DNA from: a bacterium | GTDB taxonomy: Bacteria > 4484-113 > JAGGVC01 | Reading direction: 5' to 3' | Length of the DNA stretch: 36,632 bases | NCBI GenBank assembly: GCA_039961635.1 | Contig: JABRWB010000025.1 | Coordinates: forward strand, 1-36,632 | Part shown: one piece after another, positions 5,428 through 24,963 of the stretch | Numbering within the stretch: position 1 is the first letter of the stretch | Layout: every line of letters begins with the position of its first letter | The notes under the pieces: model-generated | The model's input: only the letters and a program-made list of their open reading frames with translations | The model's database searches: none | What the model was told of the DNA's origin: nothing | Position numbers and translations under genes: made by a program

Positions 5428-5451
5428 GGCGGTGGAAAGGTGGTGTCTTTG

Positions 5452-6474: not shown

Positions 6475-6483
6475 GTGATTGAT

Positions 6484-7434
6484 ATGCTAAAAAGTTTTGC
6501 AGGCAAAAGCGGGTTTACCCTGATTGAGCTTTTGGTCGTCATCGTGATTATCGGCCTTTTGCTTGGAACGGCGGTTCCCGCGTACAACAAGGTTCGTACC
6601 AAAGCGCGCGAAACCCAAGTCGTTTCCAATTCGCGATCGATTCAGGTTGCATTGGAGCAGTTCGGGACCGACCACAGCGGATTTTATCCGCTTAGACTTG
6701 TCTGGTACGCGAACGTCGGCGACAGGGAGCCTGTGATGGAAGATCAAGCTCCCGACTGGCCACCGATGGGTTTGGCCGGCGGGGTCAGGTGGGTGGACGA
6801 AAACGGCGCGCTTTACGATTTGGAGACTGTCAGAAGAAATCCGCTGCTGCCCCAAGACATAAGGTTTATGCCGCAGCCTAGGGTGGGCGCTCTTGTCTCG
6901 CAATTTCATCAGTATTCGGACCCGTTGGTTGTTCTTGGATATCTTCCGGGCGGTTATCCCAAAAATCCGTTTTTGAACAGGCCCATGGGTGTGATCAATT
7001 GGTCTTGGGCAAACGGCGAGCCGTTTACGCCGGGGGCAAATGTGGCGGTTTCGTCAGGTGATTTCGTTTATACGCATTTTCCCTGTTGGGACGAAAACCT
7101 TGGTCAGTGGGAAGACCCGAAGGGCGTCGTCAAAGGGAAAGTGCGTTATCGAGTCGAAACCGAGGCCGGAACGCTTCCAGGCGAATGGGGAGTCGATTTG
7201 ATCGACTGCTACCAGTTGTGGTCGTACGGCAATCTGCCCATTACCGCTGCGTTTTATTCAGCCTACGATAACAGCGAGTTTCCCGGACCGCCGCCTAGGA
7301 AAGTTGCAATCCGACAGGATTGGAACGCCAACGGCAAAAAGGATCCGTTCGAAGCGGGAATAATCTTTTACGCGTCGGGCGGTTCGTGCGCGTCCGAGCG
7401 CGACCAGAACACCGGTGGAAAGATTGAGTTTTAG
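6484..7434 (+). CDS. Prepilin-type protein, GspG-like paralogue 2
   Basis: 316 residues. The chosen start is ATG 6484, preceded by AGGTGA; the GTG at 6475 directly after the previous stop is in frame but leaves no room for a ribosome-binding site outside the upstream gene. The mature N-terminus is FTLIELLVVIVIIGLLLG with Glu5, followed by the GspG helix (KARETQVVSNSRSIQVAL) and FGTDHSGFYP. The LGYLPGGYPKNPF motif matches the YLESYPANPF of the preceding paralogue. The remainder is Trp/Tyr/Gly-rich and diverges strongly from its neighbours. It ends with GGKIEF rather than the usual charged GspG tail. Expected role: a subunit of the periplasmic pseudopilus. Confidence 0.87.
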   Translation: MLKSFAGKSGFTLIELLVVIVIIGLLLGTAVPAYNKVRTKARETQVVSNSRSIQVALEQFGTDHSGFYPLRLVWYANVGDREPVMEDQAPDWPPMGLAGGVRWVDENGALYDLETVRRNPLLPQDIRFMPQPRVGALVSQFHQYSDPLVVLGYLPGGYPKNPFLNRPMGVINWSWANGEPFTPGANVAVSSGDFVYTHFPCWDENLGQWEDPKGVVKGKVRYRVETEAGTLPGEWGVDLIDCYQLWSYGNLPITAAFYSAYDNSEFPGPPPRKVAIRQDWNANGKKDPFEAGIIFYASGGSCASERDQNTGGKIEF

Positions 7435-7480
7435 TTCGCGGTGAAGGCCGCTTTGGCCCATCCGCCTTGAGGGTGAAAAA

Positions 7481-8482
7481 ATGAATACTAAATCGGGTTT
7501 CACATTAGTCGAGATGCTGGTGGTGGTGGGGATCATCGCCGTGTTGATCACCGTCCTCGTGCCCAAAATCCAGGGTGTGCAGGACAAAGCCAAAGAGCAA
7601 GCGACGGTTGCTCAGGTTGCTTCCATTGAAGCGGCGCTGGCGAACTTCGCCGCCAACCACGACGGCCATTATCCCGGCTCCGCGGTTGACATTATGACCC
7701 CGTTCCCTGAATACGGCCTCGGAGATCCCGCATTCAGCGTAGGCGCGTCGCCCGCGCTTCCTCCGAACAATCCCGGCCCGGGGCACTCTGCGGGCGTTCT
7801 TGGCGGCACCGTCAACAAGCAGCTTGTTCTTGACGTTCGAAATCAAGGAAGCGTCAACGGGCCGACAAACACCGGCAGATATTTCGACCGGATGGTTCTG
7901 GACGGAGCGCTTTCGGAGTACCCGGACAACCAATTCAGAAAGGGCGGCGGCGCCGCTGTGCCGATGTACAACATTTTCAGGTATGAAGCACAGAACGCCG
8001 GTAATCTTGCGACGTTCACTCCGTACATTTACGCGATGAACAACAGGGCGCGCAGCATTGCGGAAATTCCGGGCGACTCCGGCCGCGTAAGATACACGGG
8101 TGTCCCGAACAGCGGATATCCTTACGACTGGTTCGGCCCTAACGCGCTGGCCACGGACGACCATTTTTTCAGCCCAGGGGATTTCGCGTATGTGCCGATT
8201 ATCACCCAAAGCACATTCGCGTATTCGGATGATCCAACTACGCCCGGCAACGATCAATACCGGTTTTCAACCTTGGTAAACGGCTACATGATTTTTGCTT
8301 ACGGCAGCCTGGATCAGAAAGAAAACAAGTACGCGGACGAGCAGCAGAAATTCGGCCAGGAAGGATTTACCGGAATGACCGGCGCGTTGCCGCCTCCTCC
8401 CGGTGCGCCCGCGATTGATACTCCTTACGAACATGCCGTTTACAGGCTGTTCAACGGGGCGGTTTATTACAGCCGCAAGTAA
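7481..8482 (+). CDS. Prepilin-type protein, GspG-like paralogue 3
   Basis: 333 residues from ATG 7481, with TGAGGGTG about six bases upstream. The leader is minimal (MNTKSG) and the mature helix reads FTLVEMLVVVGIIAVLITV with Glu5, then AQVASIEAALANFAANHDGHYPG, the best GspG match of the three. The VLDGALSEYPDNQF segment corresponds to the Y-P-x-N-P-F motif, with Pro replaced by Gln. GYMIFAYGSLDQKENKY near the C-terminus matches the GYVLIGWGAS strand of paralogue 1. A proline cluster (LPPPPGAPA) precedes a C-terminal VYRLFNGAVYYSRK strand. Spacing to both neighbours is short. Three such genes in a row suggest either a heteropolymeric pseudopilus or specialised subunits. Confidence 0.88.
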   Translation: MNTKSGFTLVEMLVVVGIIAVLITVLVPKIQGVQDKAKEQATVAQVASIEAALANFAANHDGHYPGSAVDIMTPFPEYGLGDPAFSVGASPALPPNNPGPGHSAGVLGGTVNKQLVLDVRNQGSVNGPTNTGRYFDRMVLDGALSEYPDNQFRKGGGAAVPMYNIFRYEAQNAGNLATFTPYIYAMNNRARSIAEIPGDSGRVRYTGVPNSGYPYDWFGPNALATDDHFFSPGDFAYVPIITQSTFAYSDDPTTPGNDQYRFSTLVNGYMIFAYGSLDQKENKYADEQQKFGQEGFTGMTGALPPPPGAPAIDTPYEHAVYRLFNGAVYYSRK

Positions 8483-8498
8483 GCTGGAGCGTGTATAA

Positions 8499-10208
8499 AT
8501 GTCTGGCAAAAAACTAGAAACGGACGTGCGGGGCTTCACTGTCCTCGAACTCCTGATTGTTCTTCTGATTTCTTCCATTGTGATTCTCGTGCTGGGAACG
8601 GTGCTCGCGTCCAGCTTCGAGGTGCTTCGAAAGGGGGAGACCAGAAGCCAGCTTCAATCGAACGCCCGAAACGCGCTTAATTACCTGTCCGACAACATAG
8701 CATCGGCCAACATAATCCCGCGCTCCGTCGACCGCAACTACAACTTTTGGGACGACGCGATGCTTTACAACCCGGCGGACAACTCGGGTGATTTCGGTAT
8801 AGATGCGGAATACGTGGTGGGGCGTCCGGAAGATGTTAACGATCCGACCTCGCCGCACATACTGCCGGCCGGCTGCATGATGAGCGAGGCCTTCAGCGAC
8901 AGGCTGATGCTGAAGCACCAAGACGACCTTACGCTTGACCTTTTCAACAGCATCAGGGGGATTAAGCAAATACAGCCCAATCTGCTTGAATTCAACGGTC
9001 AACGCGTTTCATCCAAGACTAGCATTTTCAGGCTGGCCGTCCCGACGACGGGAAATATGATCTATTACTTGTCTGACCGTCTTCACAACAGGCAATACTC
9101 CGATCCAGCGTCTCCATTTCCCGAAACGTATTCCGTTAGGAACCGGAGCGAGTCATTTGTGCTTTACGAATCTATGCGCCTTGAGTTAAAGGAATACGCA
9201 TCCGAGGGCGGCACACCCAACCCCGCGGTCGTGGGCGATCCTGCGGTTAGTTTTGCGGATTTCGACTTCCCCATAGCATCCAACATTACGCGGGTGAAGT
9301 TTGAATATTTCCACAGGGTTCCGGTGTGGCTGGTCGATCCCAACGATCCGGACACAGCCTATCTGGAGGATACAAACGACTCCAATGGGCCTGACAGCCC
9401 TGTACTGATGGGCTGGAAGTTGGTTCCGATAGACGTAATGGACAATTCCCGTACGAGCTGGAGCTTCGATGACATTTACCTCGACCCGTCCCAATTCGGA
9501 TCTCAATCAGCGTACGCGAGCGCCGCTGCCTCCAGGTTCAACTTTTGGAACATAGACGTTTTCTACAACGAGCCGCCAGACCGCCCGCGTGACGCCCCGT
9601 TCGATTTTTACGGCTGGTTGTCAAACGGCAATTACGGCAGCTTCGAGTTCGACGAAGAGCAGATAATCGGAGTTGACAACAACCAGGCACTGGATCCCAT
9701 CGTGAGCACGGATTTCGGAAACTGCGACGGAATTCCGGACGGCGACGGCATCCCGGATGAGCCGGTGCCCGCTTGGTGGCTTCCGTACCTTTCTGCGATC
9801 CGCATCACCGTGGTTGCGACACCTAACGCTGTGATCGACGAGCGAGTCCGTGAAAGCGGCCGCAAAACGGATCCTGCAGGCCGGCCTGTTTATTACAATC
9901 CCGACAGCCCCATACCGTATTCCGATCCCAGCCGCACGATTCCGCTCACAAATCTCAAGGACCTTTACATCGGGGAAGGCAAGGATGTCGTTGTTTCGAG
10001 GATGGTATACCCGGAGCTGACTTACAAGCGGGAACTTGCCATTTACCCGAACGACACGAGAATCGGCATAGAGCGGCGGGCCGATTACAATACGATCATG
10101 GGTGAAATCGCCTGCCTGGATCGGAGCACTTCTCCCATTGATACGGGCGGCCCGTTCGACGTTCGCGACAGGTACTGGGAATTGCGGGAATACGACGACC
10201 GGAATTGA
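8499..10208 (+). CDS. Prepilin-type protein, GspJ/PilW-like minor pseudopilin, oversized
   Basis: 569 residues from ATG 8499, with TGGAG about ten bases upstream. The N-terminus MSGKKLETDVRGFTVLELLIVLLIS has Gly before the cleavage site and Glu5. The helix ends in RKGETRSQLQSNARNALNYL, the GspJ/PilW signature (Arg-rich helix followed by a LSDNIASAN helix). Near the C-terminus, LPYLSAIRITVVA resembles the 'P-x-x-I-R-I-T' strand of GspJ. A DGDGIPDEP loop just before it looks like a calcium-binding DxDG turn. Classical GspJ is about 200 residues, so over 300 residues are inserted. In type II systems GspJ forms the pseudopilus tip with GspI and GspK; the next gene downstream is the GspK-like giant. 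Confidence 0.87.
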   Translation: MSGKKLETDVRGFTVLELLIVLLISSIVILVLGTVLASSFEVLRKGETRSQLQSNARNALNYLSDNIASANIIPRSVDRNYNFWDDAMLYNPADNSGDFGIDAEYVVGRPEDVNDPTSPHILPAGCMMSEAFSDRLMLKHQDDLTLDLFNSIRGIKQIQPNLLEFNGQRVSSKTSIFRLAVPTTGNMIYYLSDRLHNRQYSDPASPFPETYSVRNRSESFVLYESMRLELKEYASEGGTPNPAVVGDPAVSFADFDFPIASNITRVKFEYFHRVPVWLVDPNDPDTAYLEDTNDSNGPDSPVLMGWKLVPIDVMDNSRTSWSFDDIYLDPSQFGSQSAYASAAASRFNFWNIDVFYNEPPDRPRDAPFDFYGWLSNGNYGSFEFDEEQIIGVDNNQALDPIVSTDFGNCDGIPDGDGIPDEPVPAWWLPYLSAIRITVVATPNAVIDERVRESGRKTDPAGRPVYYNPDSPIPYSDPSRTIPLTNLKDLYIGEGKDVVVSRMVYPELTYKRELAIYPNDTRIGIERRADYNTIMGEIACLDRSTSPIDTGGPFDVRDRYWELREYDDRN

Positions 10209-10343: not shown

Positions 10344-13300
10344 ATGGCAAAAAATAAGCTTTCGAGCATAAATTCGTTGTTCTTGATGAAGTCCGAACGC
10401 CCAAAGGGCGCAAAGGGCTTCATTTTGATCGCGGCGATTGTTTTTATCGCTCTGCTTTTGCCATTGGTCACTCTGATTTTGTCAGCCGTCAGCCAGGAAA
10501 CGATTTCCGCCAACAATCTGCTTATCGAAACCAAAACGCGTAACGCCGCCGATACTGCCGTAAACAGCGCGATAAGCGTACTAATCGACCGTCAGCTTAT
10601 GCCAGATTATATTGTCAGCACCCTTCCCCAGCACCAGGGCCGGGCGATTATCGTTGACGACAATGGAGTCCTTCGCTGGGATATAGACAACGACGGCGCG
10701 GGGCTGGACGGAATTTACGGCACCGACGATGACTGGTGGATCGGCCCTTACAAGGACCGCAAGATGATGGGGCCGGACAGCGATTATCCCCAGTACGATC
10801 CCGAAGAAGAGCGGAATTACCAGGTGGGATTTCGCTGGGTCAACTGGAACAAGCCGACCTATCTTGCCGAAAACTGGGCGTGGTTCGGACGCAACAATCC
10901 TTTTGCATTCAATCGCGCAAGCGGGCGCCCGGTTTATCTGTACAATCAATTTGCGGCCATTTACGACGGAGGCACCGGCGGGATAACGCCGCAGGATTGG
11001 CAGGGTTACCATCCCGAAGACAGCTCGGTTTTCCCGCCCAACAGATGGGTCGTTCCCGGTTATTACCAAAACGCTCCGGTTCCGACCAGCACGGTGATTT
11101 CCGGCAATGTCGGCGGGCTCGGCGGCGGCGGCGACAAGGGCTCCCTGGGTGTAAGCACTGTTTCGCTTTACCAGCCGCTGACCAACACTTTTGACACGCC
11201 GGATGAGCTTGAAAGCGAAGTTTCGATTACCGACGAAGCCGGTCGGTTGAATTTGAATATTTTCTGCAAGAAACTTCCGGTTTGGGCGACCGAGAATGAG
11301 GTCATAGATTTCGACCTCGATGGCGAATACACGGGCGACTTTGACGGCAACGGCGTTCCGGGCGAGCCGATCTGGAAGTGGATAGACAACCCTCTGTTCC
11401 CCGATCGCGACACGGTCATTCCCATCGGTCAAGGCACCGGGCAGGGCACCGACTTCAATGGCGACGGCATAAATTCGCCTGAAATCGGCGAGGATATCCA
11501 GCATTACTACGCTCCCGACTGGACGGATTACGCGGTTAAGAGCAAGGCGATGCTGATGGCCCTTCCCGGCGTAAACGATGCGATTGCGACCAGGATTTTG
11601 AAAGGCCTCAATCCCGATTTATCCAGCCTTCCTGCCGGCTATACACCCGATCCGAGCGGCATTACGCCGAATCCGCCTGTGGACAGGCGCGCGGATGTGC
11701 CCAATTTAAGCCCCAACTTTTGGGCGTATTACTTCGAAGTGGACGCATTCGGTCAGATAACCGACATAATGCTCGAGTACACAAATACTCACAGCGGAGT
11801 TCGTCCGGATTTCGATTTGGACAACGATGACGTTCCGCTGCCGCGCCCGCGCCCGCTGACCGATGTCAAGCAGCTTTTGGACTTTGGTTTTACAAAGCAG
11901 CAATTCGACAGAATCAAGGATTACGTGACGGTATTCAGTTATGACACGAACGTTCTCGGCACCGAAGTATGGGATGCGGAGCCGACCTCCGGAGACAACG
12001 ACGAAATCGCCGATGTCAGATACAACATAAACAACGTCGTCACGCCTGCCACGCTTGAGTCATACCGCTCAGCAGCGAGCGAGCTTCAGTCCTTCATTCG
12101 CAATCACCTTACCGAGACACGATACAAGAAAATCACGCTTCCGGTTGTGGATCGCGACGGCAGAACAAAGAGCGATCCGCTGTTCCAGGATCCATCCACC
12201 CATCCCTACAAGCTGAATCCGGAATTCAGCTACGACAGCCTTCTCTCCATAATTTTGTATCGCAACGGCTATCAGTCCACCGACGCGTATCGCTACAATC
12301 CGATAGATGTCAATGACGACGATATACGCGTGGCGAAACCCGGCATTCCCTTCGGGATATTCGCACGGTTTTTCGGAGGATTTTCAAACAGTTTCATTCC
12401 GATAGCGGATTTCCAGCCCAGCTTCGTTGCAAATCCGAACGCGCCGATGAGCCGCAACGAAAACGCGTCCATTCCGCCGCACAACTTTCAATCGGTTGCC
12501 GATTTGCTTGAAGTGCCGTTATACAAATTCGACAATCTTGCAATCAGCGCGATGGTGGATACTCCCAGCTCCGCTGTATGCAACCCGAACGACACCGTTG
12601 ACGTGGTTTATTTGGTGGCCTTCAGCGATGTTATCGGCGCGGACGAAGTTGACGCGGGCGGCGAAATAATCCCGACATACACCGTTGTATTTGATATGGA
12701 CGGCGATGGTGTTATGGAAGCCGACGACGAGGAAATCGTCGTCGATATGCGTGACGCCGATCCGAACAACGATTTGCTCAGTTTCCGCACGCCTCCTCCA
12801 ACGGGCACGCGCAGCGCGATCATCGGATCGTTCGACAAGCCGCTTTACGATGCTTCGGTTGCGGCCAATCCGACCGATCCAACTTACTGGATCGCCAACA
12901 ATTTCATCAATTTCAAACGCACATTCACCTTCGCGGGAGGCAACATCCCCGATCCCGACCCGTCGCTCGCGGGGCAGACTTTCGACTGGGACGGAGACGG
13001 AAGGGCTGAATTCGCGTACGACGCGTTTGGCGATCCCTTCATCACCGCTCGCGTTACCGTAATTAAAAACCGCACCGTTGATTCGGGCGGGGAGGACGAT
13101 TACAGGGCGCTGCGCGCGGACGAAGTTGTCAAGGTATACATCCAGCACAACTGCGCGGCGAAAATTCCGCTCGAGACCAACATTCTTGCAATCCGCACCG
13201 GAAGCAACACTTTCCAGGTTCTTTCGCGCACTGCGGGCGGCTCCGTTGACCGCGGCCCGGTATACCTGTACAACTGGGTTTACAACGGATTCCCCGTGGA

Positions 13301-16300
13301 TTCATCGGTGGACGGCCTTGTGCTTGCTCCGGCCGACTGGTCGCAGCAACGCGTGGCGCCGACGATTTCCATGGATCCGTCCGCCACGACAATCGGTCTT
13401 CAAGTATTCGACATTTGGGGCGCGGACGCCGCAACCGCGGCGGTATTGGGCTTTCCCTACACCGTTATTGCCGAGTTTCTGAATCCCGCGGATCCGAACT
13501 ACGGCAACATCGCGCACCTTGCCCCGATTGACGGCTCGAACGTCAACGGGTTTATGAATCCTCCTCCTCCTCCCCCTCCGGGCTTCGGTCCGCTTTTCCC
13601 CGCAAACGCGTCGGACTTCGATGTTGCAGAGGTCAACTCGATCGCTTCGGCGGGACAACTTTTTGTAGAGGTGGCGGCGGAAACGCCATCCATTTATCAA
13701 AATCAGTATTCGGTGATTCACGCCGGCGCATACGGCGGCCAAGGTCCGTACACTTACAGCATTACGGTCAACGGGCCCGGCGGATACACCGATACATTCG
13801 GTTCGTTCGGCCCGGTCAACCAGAACGTTTTCGAAGACCGCACGGAGGATTTGGCGTCGTCCGGGCTTTACACGGTTACGCTCACGGTCACCGACTCAAG
13901 CCCGATACCGCTTGTCGCGCTTGCAAACACGACCATAGCCGTCAGCGGGTCTGTCAACTCCAGCACGCAGTATGCGGACGTTCCGAATCTTACGGTGAGC
14001 GCGAAGCTTGTTCCTTACGAGCGCGGCAATCCCGGAAACGCAAGGTCGTTCCAAGGCATCGCCAGTGTAAGCGGCGGACGTCCGAATTACCTGCTTAGGT
14101 GGGATGTGCGCGACCAGAACGGCGCGGTGATCAACCAGAACCATCCCGGCGGCACGACGCCAATGACCTATACGGCTCCGGGCGCTACTCCGATATTTAC
14201 GTTTAATCCCAACTCGTCTAGCGACGGGATTTACTTCGTCTACGTCAGCGTCATCGACAATACGGACAGGAATCCGAATCTTGTTTCCAGCACGATCGCG
14301 ACTGACGTCGTTCCTGTGCTTATCGGTCCGAGCACCGATTTAAGGGTGTCGCCGTCAATCTACGCGAATCCTCCGGGTAACGCATTCACCGGCACAGCGC
14401 GCAGCGCCGAATCAATTTCGCTTGTCGTGCCGGGAGCGCCGCGCGTGTACAGCTACGCATCGTCTGGGCACAATGCAATCGAACCCAGGATCGCTCCAGC
14501 CGGTTCGGTGATCGAGATCCGAGGAATCAACTTCGATACCGCTAATCCTTCCAGCAACATCGTCACATTCGAACCCGGCATCCAGGCCGCCGCGATTTCG
14601 GCTTTCAACGATCCAGACCACCTACCCGGAATCGGCGAGTTCCAGCAGCAGGTTCTTCGCGTGCGGATACCGGATAACGCGGTCAGCGGATTCGTCACGG
14701 TTCGCAACCAGTTCGGCACTTCGCAAAACTCGAGCGAATACAACTTCCTTATGACGAACTGGAGGGTTAGCTTCGACCTGTACGCGGCTCACATCGACAC
14801 TTATAACGAAGATCCGCTTCTGCAGGATCGCTACCGCTACGAGGTGGACTTCCAGGGCGACGGGAAGGTTGACGCAGCAATCGAGACTACAGACCTCGAG
14901 GTTCTGGCCGCAAACAGGCCGGAGCTTACTTACGATTACGCAAACGACGGCTTCGGCAACTACCAGGCCACTCTTCGCGTAACCAACCTGGTTTCGCGGA
15001 AGGTGGGGGTCAGCCACCAGCTCGTTCAGATGCGCGACCTTACCGAGATGGCGCTTAACCGCGCGAACCAGTCCGAAGCGATGGGATTGTCAGTCAACAT
15101 ACTCCCGGACTACAGGCAGCGGCTTCCGCTCCTGACGCAAAATCTGCAAATTAAGAGCTACATAAACGGCGTGACGAACGCGTTGTCGCTGGGTTACAAG
15201 TGGAATGTGGATTCCAACGAAACCAGCAGCGCCTTCAAAGCCAACAGAATCGTAGGCACGCTTCCCTACTTCAATTCGAATCCGAATTTCATCACGAGCG
15301 ACGTGATTGTTGAAGGATATCTGGATGCCAGATGGGCCACTCCGGCCACTCCGGTGGATGTCGTGGTTAGGATCAAGTATCCATTCGATCTCAACGAGCC
15401 GAACGAGCCGATGCTGTCGTTCGACCTTGGCGACCAGTGCGGTACATACACTTTCGACATGGCCGACGGCGGCGCGCCGATCGTCGCACGCGGCGTGGTT
15501 GTCGAGCGCGGTCCTAACTACAGCGTCGAGGAAGTCCGTTTCAGCTATGAGTTCGTGAACGCCGACGGACCGTCCACATTCCACAATCCGACATTCACCG
15601 CTGTAAGCGGATGGGGTCAGCCCTTCCCAATCGCTACCTTTTCTCTGCCGTCGATCCGCATTTCGTCATATTTGACCAACCTCACGCTTTCGATGCAGGA
15701 CGCGTTCACGCCGAAAATCTACGACGGCAATCAGCATCTTGTTGGGTTGACCGTGATGTTCGACCGCACGGCGAACGGCGAAACTCATACGGTTGAGGCG
15801 ACGGACAATGTCGCGCTTCCGATCGTCCAGCAGCCTGAATCGAACGTACATTCATATCTGGCTTTCAATCCCAGCTATGCCCTTTCTTACGGCGCAGGCG
15901 CCGCCGAGTTCAGCATGCTTGGAATAATGGGAGGAAGCCCGACCCTTGACTACCGAAGCGATATCAACGCCGATGGAAGGGTGGATATCGGCGGCTCCGT
16001 ATTCCCGAATCCGCACACCGGCACCGTGCCGCTTCGCAACACGCTTGTCCCGGTCAGCGCATGGGCGTTCACGCCGGGGTACGGCTGGCACGACGTCATT
16101 CCTCAAATACCGGGATTCAATATAGGAACCGTTACGGTGCCTTACGAGGCTACCCGCGGCGTATATACGGGCTGGGCGATGGTTTCCGAAACCGTGACTC
16201 CGCCTTACACGAACGCCAACCGCAACATTTCGGTTGATACTCAGGAGATAATGGTCGGCGGGCGGCAGATTCCGCAGGCTGGACTTGTACCTCCGTCGCT

Positions 16301-19300
16301 CGCGGTTAACATTTTCGTTGACCCGCTTCTCGGCACCGTCTCGGATGTTTATTCGCTTGCAAGTTACGCATCGGGCGGCAGCGGAAGCTACACTTACCTG
16401 TGGGAGGTGTTCTGGGACGACGGCGTAAATCCGGCGGTTCCCATTGTTCTCTCCCAGGGGCAGGAAGTGCTTTCCCAAAGCTACTTCTCGCCGATTTCAG
16501 ATGCATTTGACGAATACAACGGCGGAGCGGGCAACATTCCTTCGCTTGCGGGCCGCTATATGGTCAGGCTCACGGTAAACGACGGAAGCGGTATCAATCC
16601 GCCCGTCCAGGACAGCGTGTTCATCGAGGTTCGCGACCAGCCGCTGTCTGCTCAGCTTTTCGTCAATCCTCCCGCAGGTACGATAGACCAGAACCTCGAT
16701 TTCTGGGTGTACATCGAAGGCGGCACTCCCCCCTACACGTACCAAATCGACTACGGCGACGGCACGCCGGTGGTCACGGTCGGCAACGTGACCAGCAGCC
16801 TGTCGTTCCTTTCGCACGCGTACACCGTATTCTCGCCGCCGGGCGGATACCACGCCAAACTCGAAGTGCGCGATTCGACCGGCACAGTTGTGGGCGGCGT
16901 AGGGACGGGCGCGGGGGATCCAACGCCTCCTGTTCCGAACGGCCAGCCGAATTACGACGAGGAAATCGCGATCGGCGACAGGCTGCCTCTCAACATCTCG
17001 CTTATGTCCACGCCCGTCAGCGGAGTTAACGCATTCCCGGTCGAAGTGCATTACGCCATAGGCGGCGGCGTCAAGAGCTCCGCGATTTCGGGAGGCGCCG
17101 GTTCGTATATCGTTGGATTGAACTTGCTGGATGAAAACGGCAATATAGTCGGGAACTGGTTCGGTACGGATCCGAACACATTCGGACCCAACGGCCATCC
17201 GGACGTAGACGTGATTATTCCGGGCAATCCTCAGTTCTTCGAATCCGAATTCAATGGTACGCCCGGCACGGCCGACCAGCTGCCGCCGGATTACGATTCT
17301 ATCAGCCCGCGGGGAAATCCGCAGCGCCGGGATTACAACGCGAACAACACCGGCCAGATTTCGCCGACCGGCGACATCGACTGGTTCACGATCGACAAGC
17401 CGTTCCCGCCGCCCGCGCGCCCGCTTCGCGTAGATTTGGAGTGCACGGATCTGGCGCCGGGAGAGAGCATGACGATTTCGATTTACAGCCCGACCGACCA
17501 GGTGAATCCGATCGACTCGCAAACCATAACGGGCGGCGGCCCGACTCTCGTTCAGGTAAACGCCACCGGTTACAACAACCAGGGCGGCACTTTTTACGTG
17601 CGCATCAACGGCGTAACCAATCCGGGCTCGTCGCACATTTACAACCTGCGCATCCAGATGATTCCGCCGGGGCAGCCGATCCCGCCACTGCCCGCCGAGA
17701 TACCCGACGACGATCCCGTTACATTCTTCGTTCCGGGACCCGGAAAGTATTTCCTGCAGGCGGTGGTTCTCGACGGCGACTTCCAGATTGCGTTCGCCCA
17801 GATTGAAATCTACTCCGAAGGCTATATCGCGCCTTCGACTTACGACGGTCTTGGCACACCGCGGGTTAGATACACACTCGAGCCGGAAGATCCGACGGAT
17901 TCGGGAAGCAGGCTGATCGAGAAGCCTCAACACGCGATCAGGATATGGACCGATCCGTTGTACGACGCGCCTACGGGCAGTTATCCCGGCGCGACCGACA
18001 ACGATGTCAGGCTCCTCGAAGCCGATCTCCAGATCCTGGGCGAGTTGTTTACGGTGGATCCGAATCCGAACCTGTTCTTCTCTAGCGATTTCAGCCCGAC
18101 TACGGATCCGCTGAAGTCTCGCCGGTACGAAATGTCCTTCGTCAACAATCCATTCAACGCGGGAGATTCGGAGGACTTCTACGATACGTATACTTTCGGA
18201 AGAATTAACATCAACACGGCCAGCGAAGAAGTCCTGACGGCGCTGTTCAGCACGATCGTTGTGGAGCGCGGCTATTACTACACTTCAAATCCGGCGGATC
18301 CCGATTACCGGCTGAACGGCCAGCGCGATTATTCGCGCGACGTTCTCATTTCCCCCGCCGAGGCCGCGGCTCTGGCTCGCGCGGTGGTCGACTACCGTAA
18401 CAGTTACTACGACGCGCAGATGAACGAAATCGCCGGATTCGACAACTTCGCCACCGGCACGGATGCAATTCGTGTGAGCCATCTTCCGGTTATCGGCCCT
18501 TGGGACGGCGCCAATCCGCACGAATACGATGCAACCGACCGCGGTGCAACCATCCCCGCCTTCGACGACGACGCGGTGGATAACGTGTACGACAATTACG
18601 CGGGCAACTACTACAACTTGGAAAACAGCGCGTATAAGTTTTACGCGACGTCCGACATCGCGATCGTCCGCAAGCAGCTTAGCACCGAGTCCGACGAGGA
18701 GTACGCGGTCTATCTCAACAACGTGTTCGACAACGACGACGGCGATGGATACGACGCAAGGTATTACATAACCTACGACGAAGAAGCCGGAGAAACGGTC
18801 GAAACGGCGCGCAACAAGCTTGCGGTGATTCAAAGCAACGGCCAGGTTGCTTACAGCTGGATGCCTAATCCGCCCTTCCAAAGCGTGTACGATCTCTACA
18901 AGGTCTTGGGCGAGGCAGCGGACTTCACCCGGTTGAATCCTAATCCGATAGACTTCGAAATAGACGCCGCCACCGGAAGGCCGAGTTACGACGAAAGCGC
19001 GATGAACACGATAGGCGACGCGGATATCGGTAACGTCCGCGTGTACAGCGGGCCATCCGTATTCAAGTACGTTGAGCGCTGGGTATCCGGCGAGGGCAGC
19101 GGGCACGCAATCCGCGGCCGTTACGAAGTGGTGACCAACTATCTCGCGGACATTGCTCCTTACATAACGACCAGAGGATACGTCTTCCGAGTCGAAGGCA
19201 GAGGTGCGCTTCCGACCACCAACGCCGACCAGGGCAACGCCCTTATGGGAGGCAGGATAAGCCGCGACAAGAACGTGCTGGCGATAGTGGACATCGGGCC

Positions 19301-19418
19301 GCTCAATACCGCACCCGAGAGTTCGTTGTTCAATCCCGAAGGCTTCGAGCCCGAACAAAGGCTGACCCACAAGGTCATCTACAGGCAGGACACCAAGCTG
19401 GATGAGGTCGGGTATTAG
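10344..19418 (+). CDS. Giant GspK-like pseudopilin with PKD, IPT and PPC-like domains (3024 aa)
   Basis: One uninterrupted frame encodes 3024 residues (over 300 kDa). ATG 10344 is chosen over GTG 10329 because GTGAGG lies about 9 bases upstream. The N-terminal KGFILIAAIVFIALLLPLV is a prepilin-type helix with Ala instead of Glu at position 5, the hallmark of GspK. GspK elements follow: ITDEAGRLNLN (~294), helix-hairpin-helix ALPGVNDAIATRILKG (~405), LTDVKQLLDFGF and KDYVTVFS (~526), NINNVVTPATLES (~558). Then come large beta modules: PKD-like (~1112-1202, ~1220-1330, ~1985-2100, ~2101-2183; the last has DYGDGTP), an IPT/TIG-like module (~1366-1470) and a PPC-like module (~2295-2440). GspK resumes at FGRININTASEEVLTAL (~2617) with LARAVVDYR and a RGYVFRVEG strand near the end. 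DxDxDG loops recur (~113, 321, 370, 782, 880, 1873). Classical GspK is about 330 residues. Expected role: the periplasmic tip of the pseudopilus. Confidence 0.85.
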   Translation: MAKNKLSSINSLFLMKSERPKGAKGFILIAAIVFIALLLPLVTLILSAVSQETISANNLLIETKTRNAADTAVNSAISVLIDRQLMPDYIVSTLPQHQGRAIIVDDNGVLRWDIDNDGAGLDGIYGTDDDWWIGPYKDRKMMGPDSDYPQYDPEEERNYQVGFRWVNWNKPTYLAENWAWFGRNNPFAFNRASGRPVYLYNQFAAIYDGGTGGITPQDWQGYHPEDSSVFPPNRWVVPGYYQNAPVPTSTVISGNVGGLGGGGDKGSLGVSTVSLYQPLTNTFDTPDELESEVSITDEAGRLNLNIFCKKLPVWATENEVIDFDLDGEYTGDFDGNGVPGEPIWKWIDNPLFPDRDTVIPIGQGTGQGTDFNGDGINSPEIGEDIQHYYAPDWTDYAVKSKAMLMALPGVNDAIATRILKGLNPDLSSLPAGYTPDPSGITPNPPVDRRADVPNLSPNFWAYYFEVDAFGQITDIMLEYTNTHSGVRPDFDLDNDDVPLPRPRPLTDVKQLLDFGFTKQQFDRIKDYVTVFSYDTNVLGTEVWDAEPTSGDNDEIADVRYNINNVVTPATLESYRSAASELQSFIRNHLTETRYKKITLPVVDRDGRTKSDPLFQDPSTHPYKLNPEFSYDSLLSIILYRNGYQSTDAYRYNPIDVNDDDIRVAKPGIPFGIFARFFGGFSNSFIPIADFQPSFVANPNAPMSRNENASIPPHNFQSVADLLEVPLYKFDNLAISAMVDTPSSAVCNPNDTVDVVYLVAFSDVIGADEVDAGGEIIPTYTVVFDMDGDGVMEADDEEIVVDMRDADPNNDLLSFRTPPPTGTRSAIIGSFDKPLYDASVAANPTDPTYWIANNFINFKRTFTFAGGNIPDPDPSLAGQTFDWDGDGRAEFAYDAFGDPFITARVTVIKNRTVDSGGEDDYRALRADEVVKVYIQHNCAAKIPLETNILAIRTGSNTFQVLSRTAGGSVDRGPVYLYNWVYNGFPVDSSVDGLVLAPADWSQQRVAPTISMDPSATTIGLQVFDIWGADAATAAVLGFPYTVIAEFLNPADPNYGNIAHLAPIDGSNVNGFMNPPPPPPPGFGPLFPANASDFDVAEVNSIASAGQLFVEVAAETPSIYQNQYSVIHAGAYGGQGPYTYSITVNGPGGYTDTFGSFGPVNQNVFEDRTEDLASSGLYTVTLTVTDSSPIPLVALANTTIAVSGSVNSSTQYADVPNLTVSAKLVPYERGNPGNARSFQGIASVSGGRPNYLLRWDVRDQNGAVINQNHPGGTTPMTYTAPGATPIFTFNPNSSSDGIYFVYVSVIDNTDRNPNLVSSTIATDVVPVLIGPSTDLRVSPSIYANPPGNAFTGTARSAESISLVVPGAPRVYSYASSGHNAIEPRIAPAGSVIEIRGINFDTANPSSNIVTFEPGIQAAAISAFNDPDHLPGIGEFQQQVLRVRIPDNAVSGFVTVRNQFGTSQNSSEYNFLMTNWRVSFDLYAAHIDTYNEDPLLQDRYRYEVDFQGDGKVDAAIETTDLEVLAANRPELTYDYANDGFGNYQATLRVTNLVSRKVGVSHQLVQMRDLTEMALNRANQSEAMGLSVNILPDYRQRLPLLTQNLQIKSYINGVTNALSLGYKWNVDSNETSSAFKANRIVGTLPYFNSNPNFITSDVIVEGYLDARWATPATPVDVVVRIKYPFDLNEPNEPMLSFDLGDQCGTYTFDMADGGAPIVARGVVVERGPNYSVEEVRFSYEFVNADGPSTFHNPTFTAVSGWGQPFPIATFSLPSIRISSYLTNLTLSMQDAFTPKIYDGNQHLVGLTVMFDRTANGETHTVEATDNVALPIVQQPESNVHSYLAFNPSYALSYGAGAAEFSMLGIMGGSPTLDYRSDINADGRVDIGGSVFPNPHTGTVPLRNTLVPVSAWAFTPGYGWHDVIPQIPGFNIGTVTVPYEATRGVYTGWAMVSETVTPPYTNANRNISVDTQEIMVGGRQIPQAGLVPPSLAVNIFVDPLLGTVSDVYSLASYASGGSGSYTYLWEVFWDDGVNPAVPIVLSQGQEVLSQSYFSPISDAFDEYNGGAGNIPSLAGRYMVRLTVNDGSGINPPVQDSVFIEVRDQPLSAQLFVNPPAGTIDQNLDFWVYIEGGTPPYTYQIDYGDGTPVVTVGNVTSSLSFLSHAYTVFSPPGGYHAKLEVRDSTGTVVGGVGTGAGDPTPPVPNGQPNYDEEIAIGDRLPLNISLMSTPVSGVNAFPVEVHYAIGGGVKSSAISGGAGSYIVGLNLLDENGNIVGNWFGTDPNTFGPNGHPDVDVIIPGNPQFFESEFNGTPGTADQLPPDYDSISPRGNPQRRDYNANNTGQISPTGDIDWFTIDKPFPPPARPLRVDLECTDLAPGESMTISIYSPTDQVNPIDSQTITGGGPTLVQVNATGYNNQGGTFYVRINGVTNPGSSHIYNLRIQMIPPGQPIPPLPAEIPDDDPVTFFVPGPGKYFLQAVVLDGDFQIAFAQIEIYSEGYIAPSTYDGLGTPRVRYTLEPEDPTDSGSRLIEKPQHAIRIWTDPLYDAPTGSYPGATDNDVRLLEADLQILGELFTVDPNPNLFFSSDFSPTTDPLKSRRYEMSFVNNPFNAGDSEDFYDTYTFGRININTASEEVLTALFSTIVVERGYYYTSNPADPDYRLNGQRDYSRDVLISPAEAAALARAVVDYRNSYYDAQMNEIAGFDNFATGTDAIRVSHLPVIGPWDGANPHEYDATDRGATIPAFDDDAVDNVYDNYAGNYYNLENSAYKFYATSDIAIVRKQLSTESDEEYAVYLNNVFDNDDGDGYDARYYITYDEEAGETVETARNKLAVIQSNGQVAYSWMPNPPFQSVYDLYKVLGEAADFTRLNPNPIDFEIDAATGRPSYDESAMNTIGDADIGNVRVYSGPSVFKYVERWVSGEGSGHAIRGRYEVVTNYLADIAPYITTRGYVFRVEGRGALPTTNADQGNALMGGRISRDKNVLAIVDIGPLNTAPESSLFNPEGFEPEQRLTHKVIYRQDTKLDEVGY

Positions 19419-19667: not shown

Positions 19668-22600
19668 GTGGTTCGTTTAAGTTCTGCACGGTTTTGCAGC
19701 TCTTGGAATGTAGGTGTTTTCGGTGTTGTGGCGATGCTGGCGCTACTAGCCAGCAGCGTCGGCGCGAGCCAAATAACCGATGTCCGCGTTAAAGGGCTGT
19801 CCGACCGGGATCTTGTAATCATTTCCACAGACAAGGAAATGGTTCAACCCGACATGGTCGTTCAGAAACTGCTTCCAACCAGGCTCGAAGTAGTTTTTTC
19901 GGGCTTCGGCTCGCCGGAGCTGGATCTGGGCGCGCTGAAAAGCGGCCTGGTCAATCGCCTGAGCCTCGTTCGCGCGAACGGCGACTTGACTTTGGTGGTT
20001 CAGCTTGACCACCAGGGAAAGGCCAACCCCGAGATGTTTCGGTGGAGCAATCCCAGGCCCAATTTATGCGTTCTTGAGATTTTTCATCCGACTTCCGACC
20101 GCTCCAAACTCTCGGACGCGATGATGGGATTCGAATCCACGCCGGCCGGTTCGGAACCAACTCTTCCAGTAGAGCCGGCAGCGGTTCTCGAATCGCCCGT
20201 ACCTGACGCGCTGCAACCCTCGGCGCTTGTCAACGATGTTTCGTTTAATCCCGCGACGAGTGAGCTGAAGATCAACTTGAGCAGCCCAATTGAGCCTTTG
20301 GTGAAGGTGGGCAACTTCCCTCCGTCGCTGACAGTGGAATTGCCGGAGGCGGCTCTTTCATCCCGCGTTCCGACGTTCGTTACAAAATACCACGGGCGAA
20401 TCCTTCATATAACGACAAGGGAAATAGCTCGGGCGGACGGTTCAACGGACGCTTCGGAGGTCCTGATCGTTTTCACGAACGGAACCGAGCCGGGCTTTGA
20501 TGTTCAAAAGTCCGCGAACGGCTCAACGGTAACGATTAAGCTTTCAGGTATCGAAACCGAATCGGCGGCGGTTGTCCCGGAGCCGCAGCCGGAACCGCCG
20601 GCGGTCGAAACTGTTGTTGCTCCGGCCGTCGAAGAATCGGCCTCCGTCGAAGAATCGGCTGCTCCGGTGATTGAAACTCCAGCGGCTCCGGCCTTCGAAA
20701 CGCCGGTTGCTGCGGAAACCGGATTTGTTACATCCGTCAAGTACGATTCTTCCACTGGTACGCTCAGCATTACGACCGATGAGAAATCCACGGTCAGCGC
20801 GACCCGTGAGAATTTCCCGCCGGGGTACCGTATTTCTGTAAACAAAAAACTCGGCAAAGCGGTGCCCGGCACCGTCGCAAAGTTCCAGGGTTCCGTGCGC
20901 TGGATAAGCGCCGCGACGGGCTCCGATGCTTCCACCACCAACATATTCGTCCAATTTGAAAACGGCGCAGACTGGACGTTGCTGTCTGCCAGCGATTCGG
21001 GCGACGGGCTCAACCACAGCATTGTATTCGGGAAAGCGCCGGTTTCAGCGGCGGCACCGGCGTTGGCGGAGGCGATTCCGGCGGTGGAGGAATCGGTTGA
21101 AGAAGCCACCGCGCCATCTGCCGAACTCTACGAGCTGCCGGCGGAATCGGCGGTTTCGACTCCGGCGGAATCGACTTATGACGGGGTTATCGCTCCCAGT
21201 GTTGACGAACTTATGGGCGAAGCTCCTGCCGAATCGTCCGACAATGAGACGGTTGGCGAAGCCGATTACGACGACTTCCCCGTATACGATCTAGAGCAGT
21301 TCCGTCAACGCGAAGGCGAATATGAGCTCCCTGAATTCGAAGGGATGAAGGATCGTTTGTCCGATGTTTTGGTCACTCTGCCCCGAGCGATTTCCATTTA
21401 CTCGGCTCTGACGATAATGAGTCAAGTGTCGGGAATAAGCATTATTCTCGATCCTTACTGGAATATGGATCCTCGCGGCACAGGTCCCACCGACCGTCCG
21501 CCGTTGGATACTCTCGGCCCCGGTGGCGGTTTCGGCGGCGGCGGATTCCGCGAGGCCGGGCAGTTCGAAGCCATCACTTTCCAGGAAGGCCTTGCCGTCC
21601 AGGGCAACTTCACCGACGTCCCGTTCGACATCGCCCTCAAGATATTGCTCGACAGCAACAACTTGAAGATGAAGGTTTACCGCGACGAAAGCGATCCGTA
21701 CGCAAAGCCCATCGTTTTTGTAACGAGCCGCGAGCGTATGGAGCACGAGCTTAAGGACGCAAACGAAGTTGAACTCTACCAACTCCACTATGCGGATCCG
21801 AACCAGATAATCCAGATACTTTGGACGATGGATATCCTTCCCTCGTTTAACGTCGGGTATTACACCTACCGAGGCATTTCGGGAGGAAATCTCGGCGGAC
21901 AGGGGCAGGGCGGTTTTGGAGGATCCGGCGGCGGAACCGGCAGAGGCGGAAGCGGCGGCGGCGGCAGCTTCAGAAACGCGAGTGTTGACCTGTCAACCGC
22001 ACCCGCCTATTTCGCCGAGCCGATGCAGGGCATCTCTCCTGGATCTCCAGGAGGTGGCGGCGGGGGCGCCGGCGGCGGCCAGGGCCAGGGCGGCCAGGGC
22101 GGTATAGGCGGCCAGGGCCAGGGCGGAGTCGGAGGCGGCATACCGCTTCCGACCGCAAAGAGCGGCCTGATCATTATGCGGGGTACGCGCGAAACGCTTG
22201 AAATCGCCAAAGACATCATCCGCAAAGTGGACAAGCCGCCAAAGCAAGCCAGTCTCAAGGTAACCATTTATACCGTTACCGAGAATCCGCAGACCGTTTA
22301 CGGGCTTTTGACCGGCCAGGCGAATAGGGACCGCACATTCTGGGATTACGGCGGAGGCTCGCTCGGGCTTACGATTCCGGCAAAGGGCGGAATCATACCG
22401 ACCGACAACTACGAGCTGACCTTCAACGCGCTGCAGACCGAGCGCAAAGCGAAGGTAATCAACCAGACCGAGATCGCCGTGATTGACGGACTCCCGGCCA
22501 ACATCGAATTCAACAGGACGCGAGGCAACTTCCGCACTACCGTCACTTTCGACGCCAACGGAAACGCATTCCGCACCGGCACGTTCGACGAAGTGACGGC

Positions 22601-22958
22601 GGATACAAGCCTCGACTTCCTGCCGCAGATCGACGACTACGGCCGCATCACGCTGCAGTTCCAGCCCGATGTGACCGTGTTCGACGGCCCGCCGCAGGTT
22701 GCGCAGGACGGACAGGGCGGCGAAGTCACCTTCCAGCCGACCACCACGACCACACTCAACACGGTACTGCGTCTGCAGGACGGCGAGACTGCGCTCATCG
22801 GCGGACTTATGATTGAAACCGACAGCGACGACATCGAAAAGGTGCCGCTGCTTGGCGACATTCCGTTCATCGGCTCGATATTCTCCCATCACAACAAGAG
22901 CCGTGAAACGAGCTACATCTTCGTCACGATTTCGGCGACCATCATCGACGACAAATAA
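19668..22958 (+). CDS. Outer-membrane secretin with AMIN-like repeats (GspD/PilQ-like)
   Basis: 1096 residues initiating at GTG 19668, with AGGAGG upstream. A signal peptide (~1-34, ending VGAS) is followed by an AMIN domain (~36-145) and two further AMIN-like repeats (~190-290, ~350-445); AMIN domains bind peptidoglycan in PilQ secretins. An Ala/Pro/Glu-rich linker leads to an STN/N0-type region (~560-690, VLVTLPRAISIYSALTIMSQ) and an N1-like domain interrupted by Gly-rich low-complexity inserts (~739-825). The secretin core ends in VPLLGDIPFIGSIFSHHNKS (~1058) and ETSYIFVTISATII, the secretin signature that forms the outer-membrane gate. Its role is the exit channel for a pilus or secreted substrate. 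AMIN repeats favour PilQ; the pseudopilin set favours GspD. It leads an operon with PilM-PilN-, PilO- and PilP-like genes. Confidence 0.92.
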   Translation: MVRLSSARFCSSWNVGVFGVVAMLALLASSVGASQITDVRVKGLSDRDLVIISTDKEMVQPDMVVQKLLPTRLEVVFSGFGSPELDLGALKSGLVNRLSLVRANGDLTLVVQLDHQGKANPEMFRWSNPRPNLCVLEIFHPTSDRSKLSDAMMGFESTPAGSEPTLPVEPAAVLESPVPDALQPSALVNDVSFNPATSELKINLSSPIEPLVKVGNFPPSLTVELPEAALSSRVPTFVTKYHGRILHITTREIARADGSTDASEVLIVFTNGTEPGFDVQKSANGSTVTIKLSGIETESAAVVPEPQPEPPAVETVVAPAVEESASVEESAAPVIETPAAPAFETPVAAETGFVTSVKYDSSTGTLSITTDEKSTVSATRENFPPGYRISVNKKLGKAVPGTVAKFQGSVRWISAATGSDASTTNIFVQFENGADWTLLSASDSGDGLNHSIVFGKAPVSAAAPALAEAIPAVEESVEEATAPSAELYELPAESAVSTPAESTYDGVIAPSVDELMGEAPAESSDNETVGEADYDDFPVYDLEQFRQREGEYELPEFEGMKDRLSDVLVTLPRAISIYSALTIMSQVSGISIILDPYWNMDPRGTGPTDRPPLDTLGPGGGFGGGGFREAGQFEAITFQEGLAVQGNFTDVPFDIALKILLDSNNLKMKVYRDESDPYAKPIVFVTSRERMEHELKDANEVELYQLHYADPNQIIQILWTMDILPSFNVGYYTYRGISGGNLGGQGQGGFGGSGGGTGRGGSGGGGSFRNASVDLSTAPAYFAEPMQGISPGSPGGGGGGAGGGQGQGGQGGIGGQGQGGVGGGIPLPTAKSGLIIMRGTRETLEIAKDIIRKVDKPPKQASLKVTIYTVTENPQTVYGLLTGQANRDRTFWDYGGGSLGLTIPAKGGIIPTDNYELTFNALQTERKAKVINQTEIAVIDGLPANIEFNRTRGNFRTTVTFDANGNAFRTGTFDEVTADTSLDFLPQIDDYGRITLQFQPDVTVFDGPPQVAQDGQGGEVTFQPTTTTTLNTVLRLQDGETALIGGLMIETDSDDIEKVPLLGDIPFIGSIFSHHNKSRETSYIFVTISATIIDDK
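22076..22126 (+). repeat. 33-bp-period repeat inside the secretin gene
   Basis: The 18-mer CGGCCAGGGCCAGGGCGG occurs at 22076-22093 and again at 22109-22126, exactly 33 bp (11 codons) apart, within a stretch coding GGQGQGGQGGI-type sequence. In-frame repeats of this kind can expand or contract by slippage without breaking the gene. Confidence 0.8.
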
Positions 22959-23040: not shown

Positions 23041-24963
23041 TTGGCAACTGCAAAACGGAAGAAAAGCTTGAAGCCGCTGGATATCGGTCTCGACCTGACC
23101 AGCGACGAGCTTCGTGTAGTGGGCTTGTCCCGCTCGCGTGCGGCCTACGTTTTGGAGCGGTTCGCAATCGCTCCGATTCCAAGCTCGGTGTTTTCCGCCG
23201 GCAAGGTGGCCGAGCCAAGGGAACTGGGCAACAAGATCGTGGAAATCTGCGCGGCCAACGGAATCAAGCCCAAGCGGGCGATGATTTCGCTGTCCGGCAA
23301 GGCGGCGATTACGCGTATCGTAGAGCTGCCGAAAATGGGCTTCGCCCAGACGCGGCAGGCCATCGATCTTCAAATCAACCAATACGTTCCTTTCCCGCCG
23401 GGCGACACCGTTTACCAGTTCAAGGTATTGCCTCCATCCGCGGGCAGCAATCCCGCGATGCAGGAAGTGCTCCTGTGCGCCACGCGGCGCAGCACCGTGG
23501 ACAGCTTGATTCAAACGCTGCGCTCCGCGAAGATCGAGCCGGGCGGAATCAAAATCACGAGCCTCGCGGCCTCCAGGCTGATACTTCCCCGGCTGGAAGG
23601 CTACACCCAGACGGCATGTTTGATCGACGTTCGCGACACTGTCACAGACCTGTCGTTCTTCATCAACGGCAATTTCCGGCTGTCCCGTCCGATCGAGATG
23701 GGCTACAACTCGATCATCGCCAAGCTCAGCCAGGCGCTCGGTGTTTCCAACGCGGAAGCGGAAGAGCACCTGCGCAACGAGCCGGTGGACCTCGCTCTGC
23801 CCGAAGAGGAAGTCGATCCCTCGGAAGACAACAGGATGCGTGAAACGCTGCTTCCCATTTTCAGCGGTTTCATCAGCGAGCTTATCCGCAGCATCCGCTA
23901 TTACGAATCGCAGGCGCAGCGCAGCGAGCGCGTGGGCAAGCTGTTCGTGTACGGCAACGTTCAGTTGTTCAAGAACCTCGACAGATACATCGAGCAGCAG
24001 ACGGGTCTGGAAGTCAGCGTGCTGTCGGTCACCAGCCTGTTGACCACGCTTCAGGGAGTTTACTCCCAGGACCTGCTGCGCGAGCACGCCGAAAAGTTGG
24101 TGGTGGCATCCGGCCTTGCAGCGGATCTTTCATTCCGCGCCAAGCCCGAGCTCAACCTGATGCCGCAGACCTACTATTTGAAGGAGCAGGCTCGCACGGT
24201 GGTGTGGGCTGGCGTGATCGTGCTTCTGATTATGGCGGCTCTGTTTTACTACCAAATTTCGCTTCTCGACGCAAAGATAAGTCAGAAAAACCAGGAGCTT
24301 GCGGAAGCGAAACAGGTGGAGGCTCAATACAAAGGCGATGCGGACACGTTTGACAACGTGAAAACCAAGATTCAGGCAAACATTCCAAAGTTCAAACAGG
24401 TTTTCGGGCTGGTCGCCAAGCAGCCGATTTGGCCGGGGTATATGACCGAGCTTGGCGCCGTTACGCCTGACACCGTGTACCTTACGGAAGTGACTTTCAA
24501 TTCGAGCGACGCCACGATAGATGTCAAGGGCGTCGCTTCTTCCCGATACGATTTGATGCTTTTCTGCCTGGCGCTGGATCACTCCGATTTCTTCGCTCAA
24601 GTGGAAGTATCCGAATCGGGTGACGAGGCGGCTGGAGGAGGTTCGGGAGGAGGCGGCGGAGGTGCCGCGTCGATTGGCGGGCCGGCCACCACGCTAAGCG
24701 GCCAGGCACCGGTTCCCGCGCCGTCGGTCGGCGGATTGCTGTCCGCCGGGGCTCCTATGGACGAATTTCGTCCGCCTCGCTGGACCGGCCGCCCGGGACA
24801 TAACATTGAGGACTTTTTCGGCACTCCTCCTTGGGCCAGGCGGGTTGTTTCGTGGGGATTCGACATTACGGTGAAGATCCAAAGCAAGGTTTGGAACCAG
24901 GAAGAGCCGCTCGCTCCGTTAACCGATTGGGAGGAGGTGGTGCAGAGTGTCGTCAACACGTAA
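23041..24963 (+). CDS. PilM-PilN fusion (GspL-like inner-membrane assembly protein)
   Basis: 640 residues from TTG 23041, supported by AGGAGGT seven bases upstream; no ATG or GTG in frame nearby fits better. Residues ~1-365 are an actin-like PilM domain (LDIGLDLTSDELRVVGL at the nucleotide-binding start, IDLQINQYVPFPP, IDVRDTVTDLSFF). At ~370-374 LNLMP is the PilN N-terminal motif that docks into PilM in two-protein systems; here it lies on the same chain. It is followed by a membrane helix (~386-408), a coiled coil (~411-440) and a PilN-like periplasmic domain containing a Gly-rich linker (~533-550) and a Pro-rich tail. The arrangement equals that of GspL in type II secretion but keeps a full-length PilM module (GspL is normally about 400 residues). 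It links the cytoplasmic ATPase to the periplasmic ring with the downstream PilO-like protein, whose gene overlaps by 17 bp. Confidence 0.9.
   Translation: MATAKRKKSLKPLDIGLDLTSDELRVVGLSRSRAAYVLERFAIAPIPSSVFSAGKVAEPRELGNKIVEICAANGIKPKRAMISLSGKAAITRIVELPKMGFAQTRQAIDLQINQYVPFPPGDTVYQFKVLPPSAGSNPAMQEVLLCATRRSTVDSLIQTLRSAKIEPGGIKITSLAASRLILPRLEGYTQTACLIDVRDTVTDLSFFINGNFRLSRPIEMGYNSIIAKLSQALGVSNAEAEEHLRNEPVDLALPEEEVDPSEDNRMRETLLPIFSGFISELIRSIRYYESQAQRSERVGKLFVYGNVQLFKNLDRYIEQQTGLEVSVLSVTSLLTTLQGVYSQDLLREHAEKLVVASGLAADLSFRAKPELNLMPQTYYLKEQARTVVWAGVIVLLIMAALFYYQISLLDAKISQKNQELAEAKQVEAQYKGDADTFDNVKTKIQANIPKFKQVFGLVAKQPIWPGYMTELGAVTPDTVYLTEVTFNSSDATIDVKGVASSRYDLMLFCLALDHSDFFAQVEVSESGDEAAGGGSGGGGGGAASIGGPATTLSGQAPVPAPSVGGLLSAGAPMDEFRPPRWTGRPGHNIEDFFGTPPWARRVVSWGFDITVKIQSKVWNQEEPLAPLTDWEEVVQSVVNT

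Follow-up and report, generated by a model that had tools for sequence, protein, structure and literature searches.

GspK, the tip of the classic type II secretion system (T2SS) piston and a known calcium binder (PMC6211770), and its counterparts XcpX and PulK (PDB 3CI0 and 5VTM) share with the protein described here an N-terminal helix without Glu5, a DExGRxNxN motif, two alpha-subdomains, C-terminal strands and a gene that follows gspJ. The present protein is about ten times longer and has 2086 residues inserted between the alpha-subdomains; its machine includes a PilM-PilN fusion and shows features resembling those of type IV pili (T4P). GspK is usually regarded as a small protein capping a piston in the periplasm. 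ComZ of Thermus thermophilus also shows a GspK-like pilin fold with a large inserted beta domain and has been proposed as a pilus-tip receptor (PMC6561018); its beta-solenoid of ~380 residues lies between the penultimate and last strands, whereas in the giant ~2086 beta-rich residues are found inside the GspK alpha-domain. In the modular pilins PilB and PilC of Streptococcus sanguinis a pilin module is joined to non-pilin binding domains for display at the tip (PMC8179133, PMC9934059), with the modules placed after a small pilin module and 860 residues in the most extreme named multi-domain case, in contrast to the internal insert of the giant. The PilX/PilW proteins of the type IVa tip, which present the large modular binding protein PilY1, resemble the role expected of the giant, although there the two functions reside in separate proteins and here in one chain. 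A search of the class for PilY1 gave no match, and its positive control was likewise silent, so that this result cannot be used as absence. No published description of a giant GspK was found in the open-access literature, in agreement with the original prediction that none of this size had been described, and the giant split GspK is apparently undescribed.

The window, a stretch of 36,632 nucleotides, is contig 25 of a genome of 2.78 Mb in 100 contigs (96% complete). The protein and its parts are as follows.

10344 to 19418, + strand: giant split GspK-type minor pilin, an intact frame with homologues in eight class relatives
10416 to 10484, + strand: prepilin cleavage site after G25 and hydrophobic helix (FILIAAIVFIALLLPLVTLIL), no Glu5, aligned with ordinary GspKs
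10344 to 11939, + strand: N-terminal GspK part, residues 1-532 (hhalign; T2SSK_1st in homologues)
11940 to 18197, + strand: insert, residues 533-2618, 2086 aa, no GspK profile match and beta-rich low-confidence models
14502 to 14780, + strand: IPT/TIG-like beta-sandwich, residues ~1387-1479, the best-scored model stretch, weak by sequence
16728 to 16889, + strand: PKD domain, residues 2129-2182 (Pfam PKD_4, E 1.2e-6, 28.9 bits against a cut-off of 27)
17208 to 17699, + strand: PPC-like module recognised by eye, residues 2289-2452, peculiar to the window copy, the aligned class relatives lacking it
18198 to 19415, + strand: C-terminal GspK part, residues 2619-3024 (hhalign, T2SSK in homologues, alignment)

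Translation of 10344-19418 (+) gives a single stop-free reading frame of 3024 aa, preceded by GAGG upstream of the ATG at 10344, and the mature protein has a computed mass of ~327 kDa and a pI of 4.3. The prepilin motif places FILIAAIVFIALLLP after G25, where the window copy reads FILIA with Ala at +5, and the homologues have either Ala or Val at this position. Glu5 is present in all six upstream pilins (H, I, three G-like and J) and is missing only in K. The N-terminus without Glu5 is a known mark of GspK, the cap subunit of the T2SS pseudopilus. The N-terminal GspK part contains the helix, the DEAGRLNLN motif (within SITDEAGRLNLN at residues ~294-305) and a first alpha-subdomain of the T2SSK_1st type ending in YVTVFS at residue 532. 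The C-terminal part, of ~406 residues, opens with GRININTA at residue 2619, continues through the second alpha-subdomain (T2SSK) and finishes with the last pilin strands, RGYVFRVEG lying close to the C-terminus. The original prediction, that GspK-type ends are split by about 2000 residues, is thus borne out by an intact frame with a 2086-aa insert, and its residue numbers were right to within a few tens.

The split point was located by profile comparison. The reference profile was built from 30 ordinary GspKs, which measure 290-390 aa and represent many families. The two ends of seven complete giants, put together (22-545 with 2605-3024 in the residue numbering of the window copy), matched it with hhalign at 99.5% and E 4e-22, the landmarks appearing in the order helix, DEAGRLNLN, first alpha-subdomain up to YVTVFS, GRININTA and second alpha-subdomain. 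As joining might by itself favour a match, each piece was also compared alone. Residues 22-900 matched on the helix (96.5%, E 8e-10), residues 290-800 gave a match ending at YVTVFSY (92.9%, E 4e-7), and residues 2600-3024 gave a match (94.2%, E 1e-7) beginning at the model point where that of 290-800 ends. The last part of the protein alone reached 14-18% (E ~0.002), the match falling on the YVFRV strand as expected, whereas three pieces of the insert gave 0.1-0.3%, that is, no match to the GspK profile. The gap between YVTV and N[IV]NTA is at most ~20 residues in the 30 ordinary GspKs versus 2086 in the window copy, so that in place of a continuous GspK head of ~300-400 aa there is one interrupted by 2086 aa. 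The insert lies where the two alpha-subdomains meet, as the N-terminal side matches T2SSK_1st and the C-terminal side T2SSK from its position 1. We also considered whether a RYNINN motif ~30 residues past YVTVFS could be the true second half, with the C-terminal block as a duplicate; this was rejected because the N-terminal match reaches no further than YVTVFSY and what is left of the profile is matched by the C-terminal block on its own.

With single sequences the signals are lower. The NCBIfam model T2SS_GspK matches residues 491-535 at model positions 165-211 (E 4.7e-6), and in the equivalog test of NF037980 the protein scores 26.3 bits against a cut-off of 130, for which reason we file it as a divergent, split homologue of GspK and not as an NF037980 equivalog. 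Pfam T2SSK matches residues 2621-2638 from profile position 1, below its gathering score, with E 0.011 for the full length and 0.0014 for the C-terminal piece; among the homologues it is found in 9 of 11 (best E 2.8e-4). T2SSK_1st is found in four of nine homologues (best E 8.6e-6), the window copy alone being without a match. Scores of this kind, below the curated cut-offs, mean that standard annotation could miss the giant. Sequence searches of the PDB returned nothing useful. A second GspK was sought in the genome, and the sole Pfam T2SSK match, on contig 41, proved to be a short ComEA-like frame.

A homologue in one frame is present in eight of the nine other genomes of the class. Six of these are complete (3013, 3102, 2839, 3593, 3422 and 3761 aa) and two reach contig ends; in the ninth genome, which is 77% complete, neither the giant gene nor a second secretin was found. 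A partial relative was encountered, in a scan of genome contigs, as a further fragment in a record labelled Verrucomicrobia bacterium B70_G9. The insert measures 1899-2515 aa in the complete class copies and 2773 aa in one copy whose C-terminus leaves its contig. Outside the sister genus the ends are conserved mostly at 35-60% and the insert mostly at 20-40%, with conservation along the whole length. The gene order H-I-G-G-G-J-K-secretin-PilMN-O-P is the same in the relatives wherever it is readable. On the evidence of sequence, the interruption of GspK between its alpha-subdomains is a fixed character of the class.

The same junction was also found open elsewhere. The T2SS_GspK model matches in 233 of 385 genomes, with frames of up to 841 aa among the best ~150 of the matches; as a split protein scores badly with this model, the N-terminal profile of the giants themselves was searched as well, and it retrieved frames of 769-1617 aa in other lineages.

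L099, L100 and L101, one other phylum: junction opened by 639, 553 and 584 aa
L102 to L105, four scattered lineages: junction opened by 589, 515, 634 and 358 aa

In this second phylum the gene is present in four of four genomes, including L099-L101, and stands after pilin J; in L099 and L101 it precedes a long protein, which in L101 is a secretin (AMIN, E 2.7e-9). No similarity to the window insert was detected in the second-phylum inserts where they were compared, at low sensitivity, and on the same comparison we set aside the idea that they represent a short form of it. The junction is therefore a recurrent insertion point whose largest fillings are those of the class of the window, an answer to the original suggestion that the split architecture be looked for in other genomes. 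In L105 (2-2311, +) the GspK-like frame of 769 aa has part of the alpha-domain duplicated, with a stretch resembling a Lamin Tail Domain between the duplicated parts.

The insert is acidic, of ~225 kDa, and almost all beta according to models of low confidence. AlphaFold gave mean pLDDT values of 48 and 47, the better-modelled stretches being ~1387-1479 (block pLDDT up to 88) and ~2020-2280, and Foldseek searches with these models returned only generic multi-Ig proteins (TM at most 0.24); in view of such models and matches we claim no named relatives for the insert. PKD, TIG and PPC modules had been predicted from the sequence. PKD is supported by Pfam here and in seven of eight homologues, but TIG is weak and confined to relatives (four of nine homologues, best E 0.0046, the window copy being without a match), and PPC, read by eye, has no Pfam match in the window copy at E up to 1. 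Another module appears in one class member, where PD40 is matched at E 3.6e-11, and in one second-phylum copy. In the homologue L026 (5492-16354) beta-propeller-like sequence of the TolB/PD40 type, with a repeat reading NGRPAIAY, is added within the insert at residues ~1800-2640, a place that corresponds to residues ~1653-1783 of the window copy. As in the modular pilins, domains that are not specific to filaments are thus present (PKD_4 above its cut-off, a PD40 propeller in a relative), but they are not grafted after the pilin module, as GspK sequence stands on both sides. The DxDxDG-type loops named in the original prediction are enriched (7 observed versus 0.5 expected, with at most 3 in 300 shuffles), but four of the seven lie in the GspK part, outside the insert. 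As ordinary GspKs themselves bind calcium (PMC6211770), these loops do not establish the Ca-binding, adhesin-like insertion that had been proposed.

The genes that surround the giant belong to a pilus operon, in which it is placed directly 3' of the gspJ-like pilin of a GspHIGJK set.

2831 to 4435, + strand: GspH/FimU-like pilin, 534 aa (N_methyl, Glu5, synteny)
4456 to 5427, + strand: GspI/PilV-like pilin, 323 aa (N_methyl, Glu5)
5440 to 6474, + strand: GspG-like pilin 1, 344 aa (N_methyl, Glu5, synteny)
6475 to 7434, + strand: GspG-like pilin 2, 319 aa (N_methyl, Glu5, synteny)
7481 to 8482, + strand: GspG-like pilin 3, 333 aa (N_methyl, Glu5, synteny)
8499 to 10208, + strand: GspJ/PilW-like pilin, 569 aa (N_methyl, Glu5, synteny)
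19668 to 22958, + strand: secretin, 1096 aa, with a long N-terminal region that is AMIN-like by eye (Pfam Secretin, E 1.6e-31)
23041 to 24963, + strand: PilM-PilN fusion, 640 aa, of GspL-like layout (PilM_2, E 7e-37; PilN, E 3e-9)
24947 to 25777, + strand: PilO/GspM-like inner-membrane protein, 276 aa, a weak assignment (T2SSM at E 0.066 only; conserved position)
25794 to 26615, + strand: small membrane protein in the PilP/GspC position, 273 aa (position; no family match)

The six accompanying pilins (2831-10208, +) are unusually large, at 319-569 aa, and each of the three GspG-like paralogues is retained as a separate orthologue throughout the class. There is no assembly ATPase gene within the window, and two PilB/PilT/PilC sets are encoded elsewhere in the genome.

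First set: PilB and PilT on contig 11; PilC and a major pilin on contig 97; a separate PilMNOPQ on contig 60
Second set: PilB, PilT and PilC on contig 96

In the relative G004 the first kind of set adjoins the other secretin, from which it follows, by elimination and not by linkage, that the contig-96 set serves the operon of the giant. The PilT of contig 96 has a Walker A motif and AIRNLIRE, and intact retraction ATPases of PilT type adjoin both long assembly ATPases of the genome. As regards a T2SS, the secretin, the PilM-PilN fusion and the pilins are present, GspM is seen only at E 0.066, no GspC could be named, and the E and F parts are on another contig with PilT beside E. As regards T4P, PilB, PilT, PilC, PilM-N-O, PilQ and a major pilin are all in the genome, in two sets, with that of the operon assigned by elimination. 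The original reading as a T2SS pseudopilus is only partly supported and was too narrow, given the PilM-PilN fusion and the PilT-type ATPases beside the assembly ATPases; GspHIGGGJ, the secretin and the fusion together make a T2SS/T4P hybrid. With the contig-96 set and its PilT this hybrid would be able to retract, possibly with a type IV-like filament. In the sister genome G001 a PKD-like fragment, recognised by eye (L053, 6697-7167, -), follows immediately after the PilC-type gene of that genome's second set.

We think it reasonably probable that the giant GspK is the tip minor pilin of this hybrid T2SS/T4P machine, with its insert displayed for binding; the insert itself most likely represents a binding ectodomain, for which display at the tip and a ligand are what we infer. 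In this mechanism the two GspK halves would fold together and, with the GspI- and GspJ-like proteins as partners, the resulting head would cap the filament and prime assembly. Because the insert leaves and re-enters the GspK fold at one point, it would be a looped chain of beta-sandwiches suspended from the tip. Pushing of the filament through the adjacent secretin would then expose the arm outside the cell, where it could bind a surface, a polymer or a partner, and exchange of modules, such as the PPC-like one in the window copy or the beta-propellers in a relative, could alter the target. ComZ and the modular pilins serve as precedents (PMC6561018, PMC8179133). A doubled string of domains of ~2.5-3 nm could fit a secretin channel of several nm. 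One chain would in this way do the work that in type IVa pili is shared by PilX-type minor pilins and the separate tip adhesin PilY1. Were the machine a short pseudopilus, the insert might instead be retained in the periplasm or in the secretin chamber.

The last possibility leads to the main rival, though in our judgement an unlikely one, namely that the machine is a T2SS-like piston whose insert is kept within the envelope as a substrate receptor that collects substrates or makes contact with the secretin's long N-terminal region. The GspHIGJK order, the GspL-like PilM-PilN fusion and the secretin with its long N-terminal region are what such a piston would have, and classic GspK is indeed a piston tip (PMC6211770); on the other hand ~225 kDa is very large for a periplasmic tip, and PilT-type ATPases stand beside both long assembly ATPases. 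The modules also argue against it, as PKD, TIG, PPC and propeller modules are typical of exported surface proteins. It is far less probable that GspK acts as a mere carrier from which the insert is cut out, to be released or anchored on the surface as a separate giant protein: the large and variable insert, with loops next to both junctions, would suit such a delivery route, but throughout the class the flanks are conserved along with much of the insert, and neither a protease nor a conserved cleavage motif could be found for the junctions.

That the protein is an artefact of assembly or frame fusing two genes, or that its ends resemble GspK by chance, we hold to be scarcely credible. Such a view could point to the single-sequence Pfam and NCBIfam scores that fall under the curated cut-offs; however, genomes assembled independently, from one class and from a second phylum, share the one-frame architecture, and the profile match of 99.5%, the negative insert controls and the position after GspJ also speak against it. 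The two conditions under which the original prediction was to fail, terminal blocks that do not match GspK profiles and a frameshift or assembly error, are therefore contradicted, the former by separate matches of 96.5%, 92.9% and 94.2% versus 0.1-0.3% for the insert and the latter by the eight class genomes with a one-frame homologue in the same operon position.

Returning to the displayed tip minor pilin, we put forward, with slightly less than even confidence, the broader proposal that several bacterial lineages have separately used the junction between the two GspK alpha-subdomains as a docking point for large display domains. The cap subunit of a type IV-like filament would thereby have become a giant tip adhesin or receptor, reaching ~3,800 aa, that can be retracted and whose modules can be exchanged. 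A giant GspK found throughout a candidate phylum of uncultured bacteria, in a mixed T2SS/T4P machine, points to a fluid boundary between secretion piston and surface fibre, and the question of whether such a tip gets outside the cell has here a natural test case. Knowledge of the exact GspK site that tolerates thousands of added residues opens ideas of tip display to testing in laboratory strains.

Several other genes of the window deserve mention. After the pilus operon there is a lone gene resembling NADH dehydrogenase subunit N (NuoN; 26640-28304, +), found also in the relatives read at this place, and it is followed by an O-antigen-ligase-like gene with Wzy_C (28327-30321, +) that is shared with the sister genome G001. 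The product of the latter has weak matches to the O-glycosylation ligases PEP_O_lig and TfpM and is possibly a pilin glycosylation enzyme. At 33679-35087 (-) a long nucleotidyltransferase-domain gene (347 aa) adjoins a HEPN-domain gene, the two resembling a toxin-antitoxin pair of the MntA/HepT type, and at 35097-36470 (-) there is a CsgG-domain lipoprotein-like gene (Pfam CsgG, E 2e-10).
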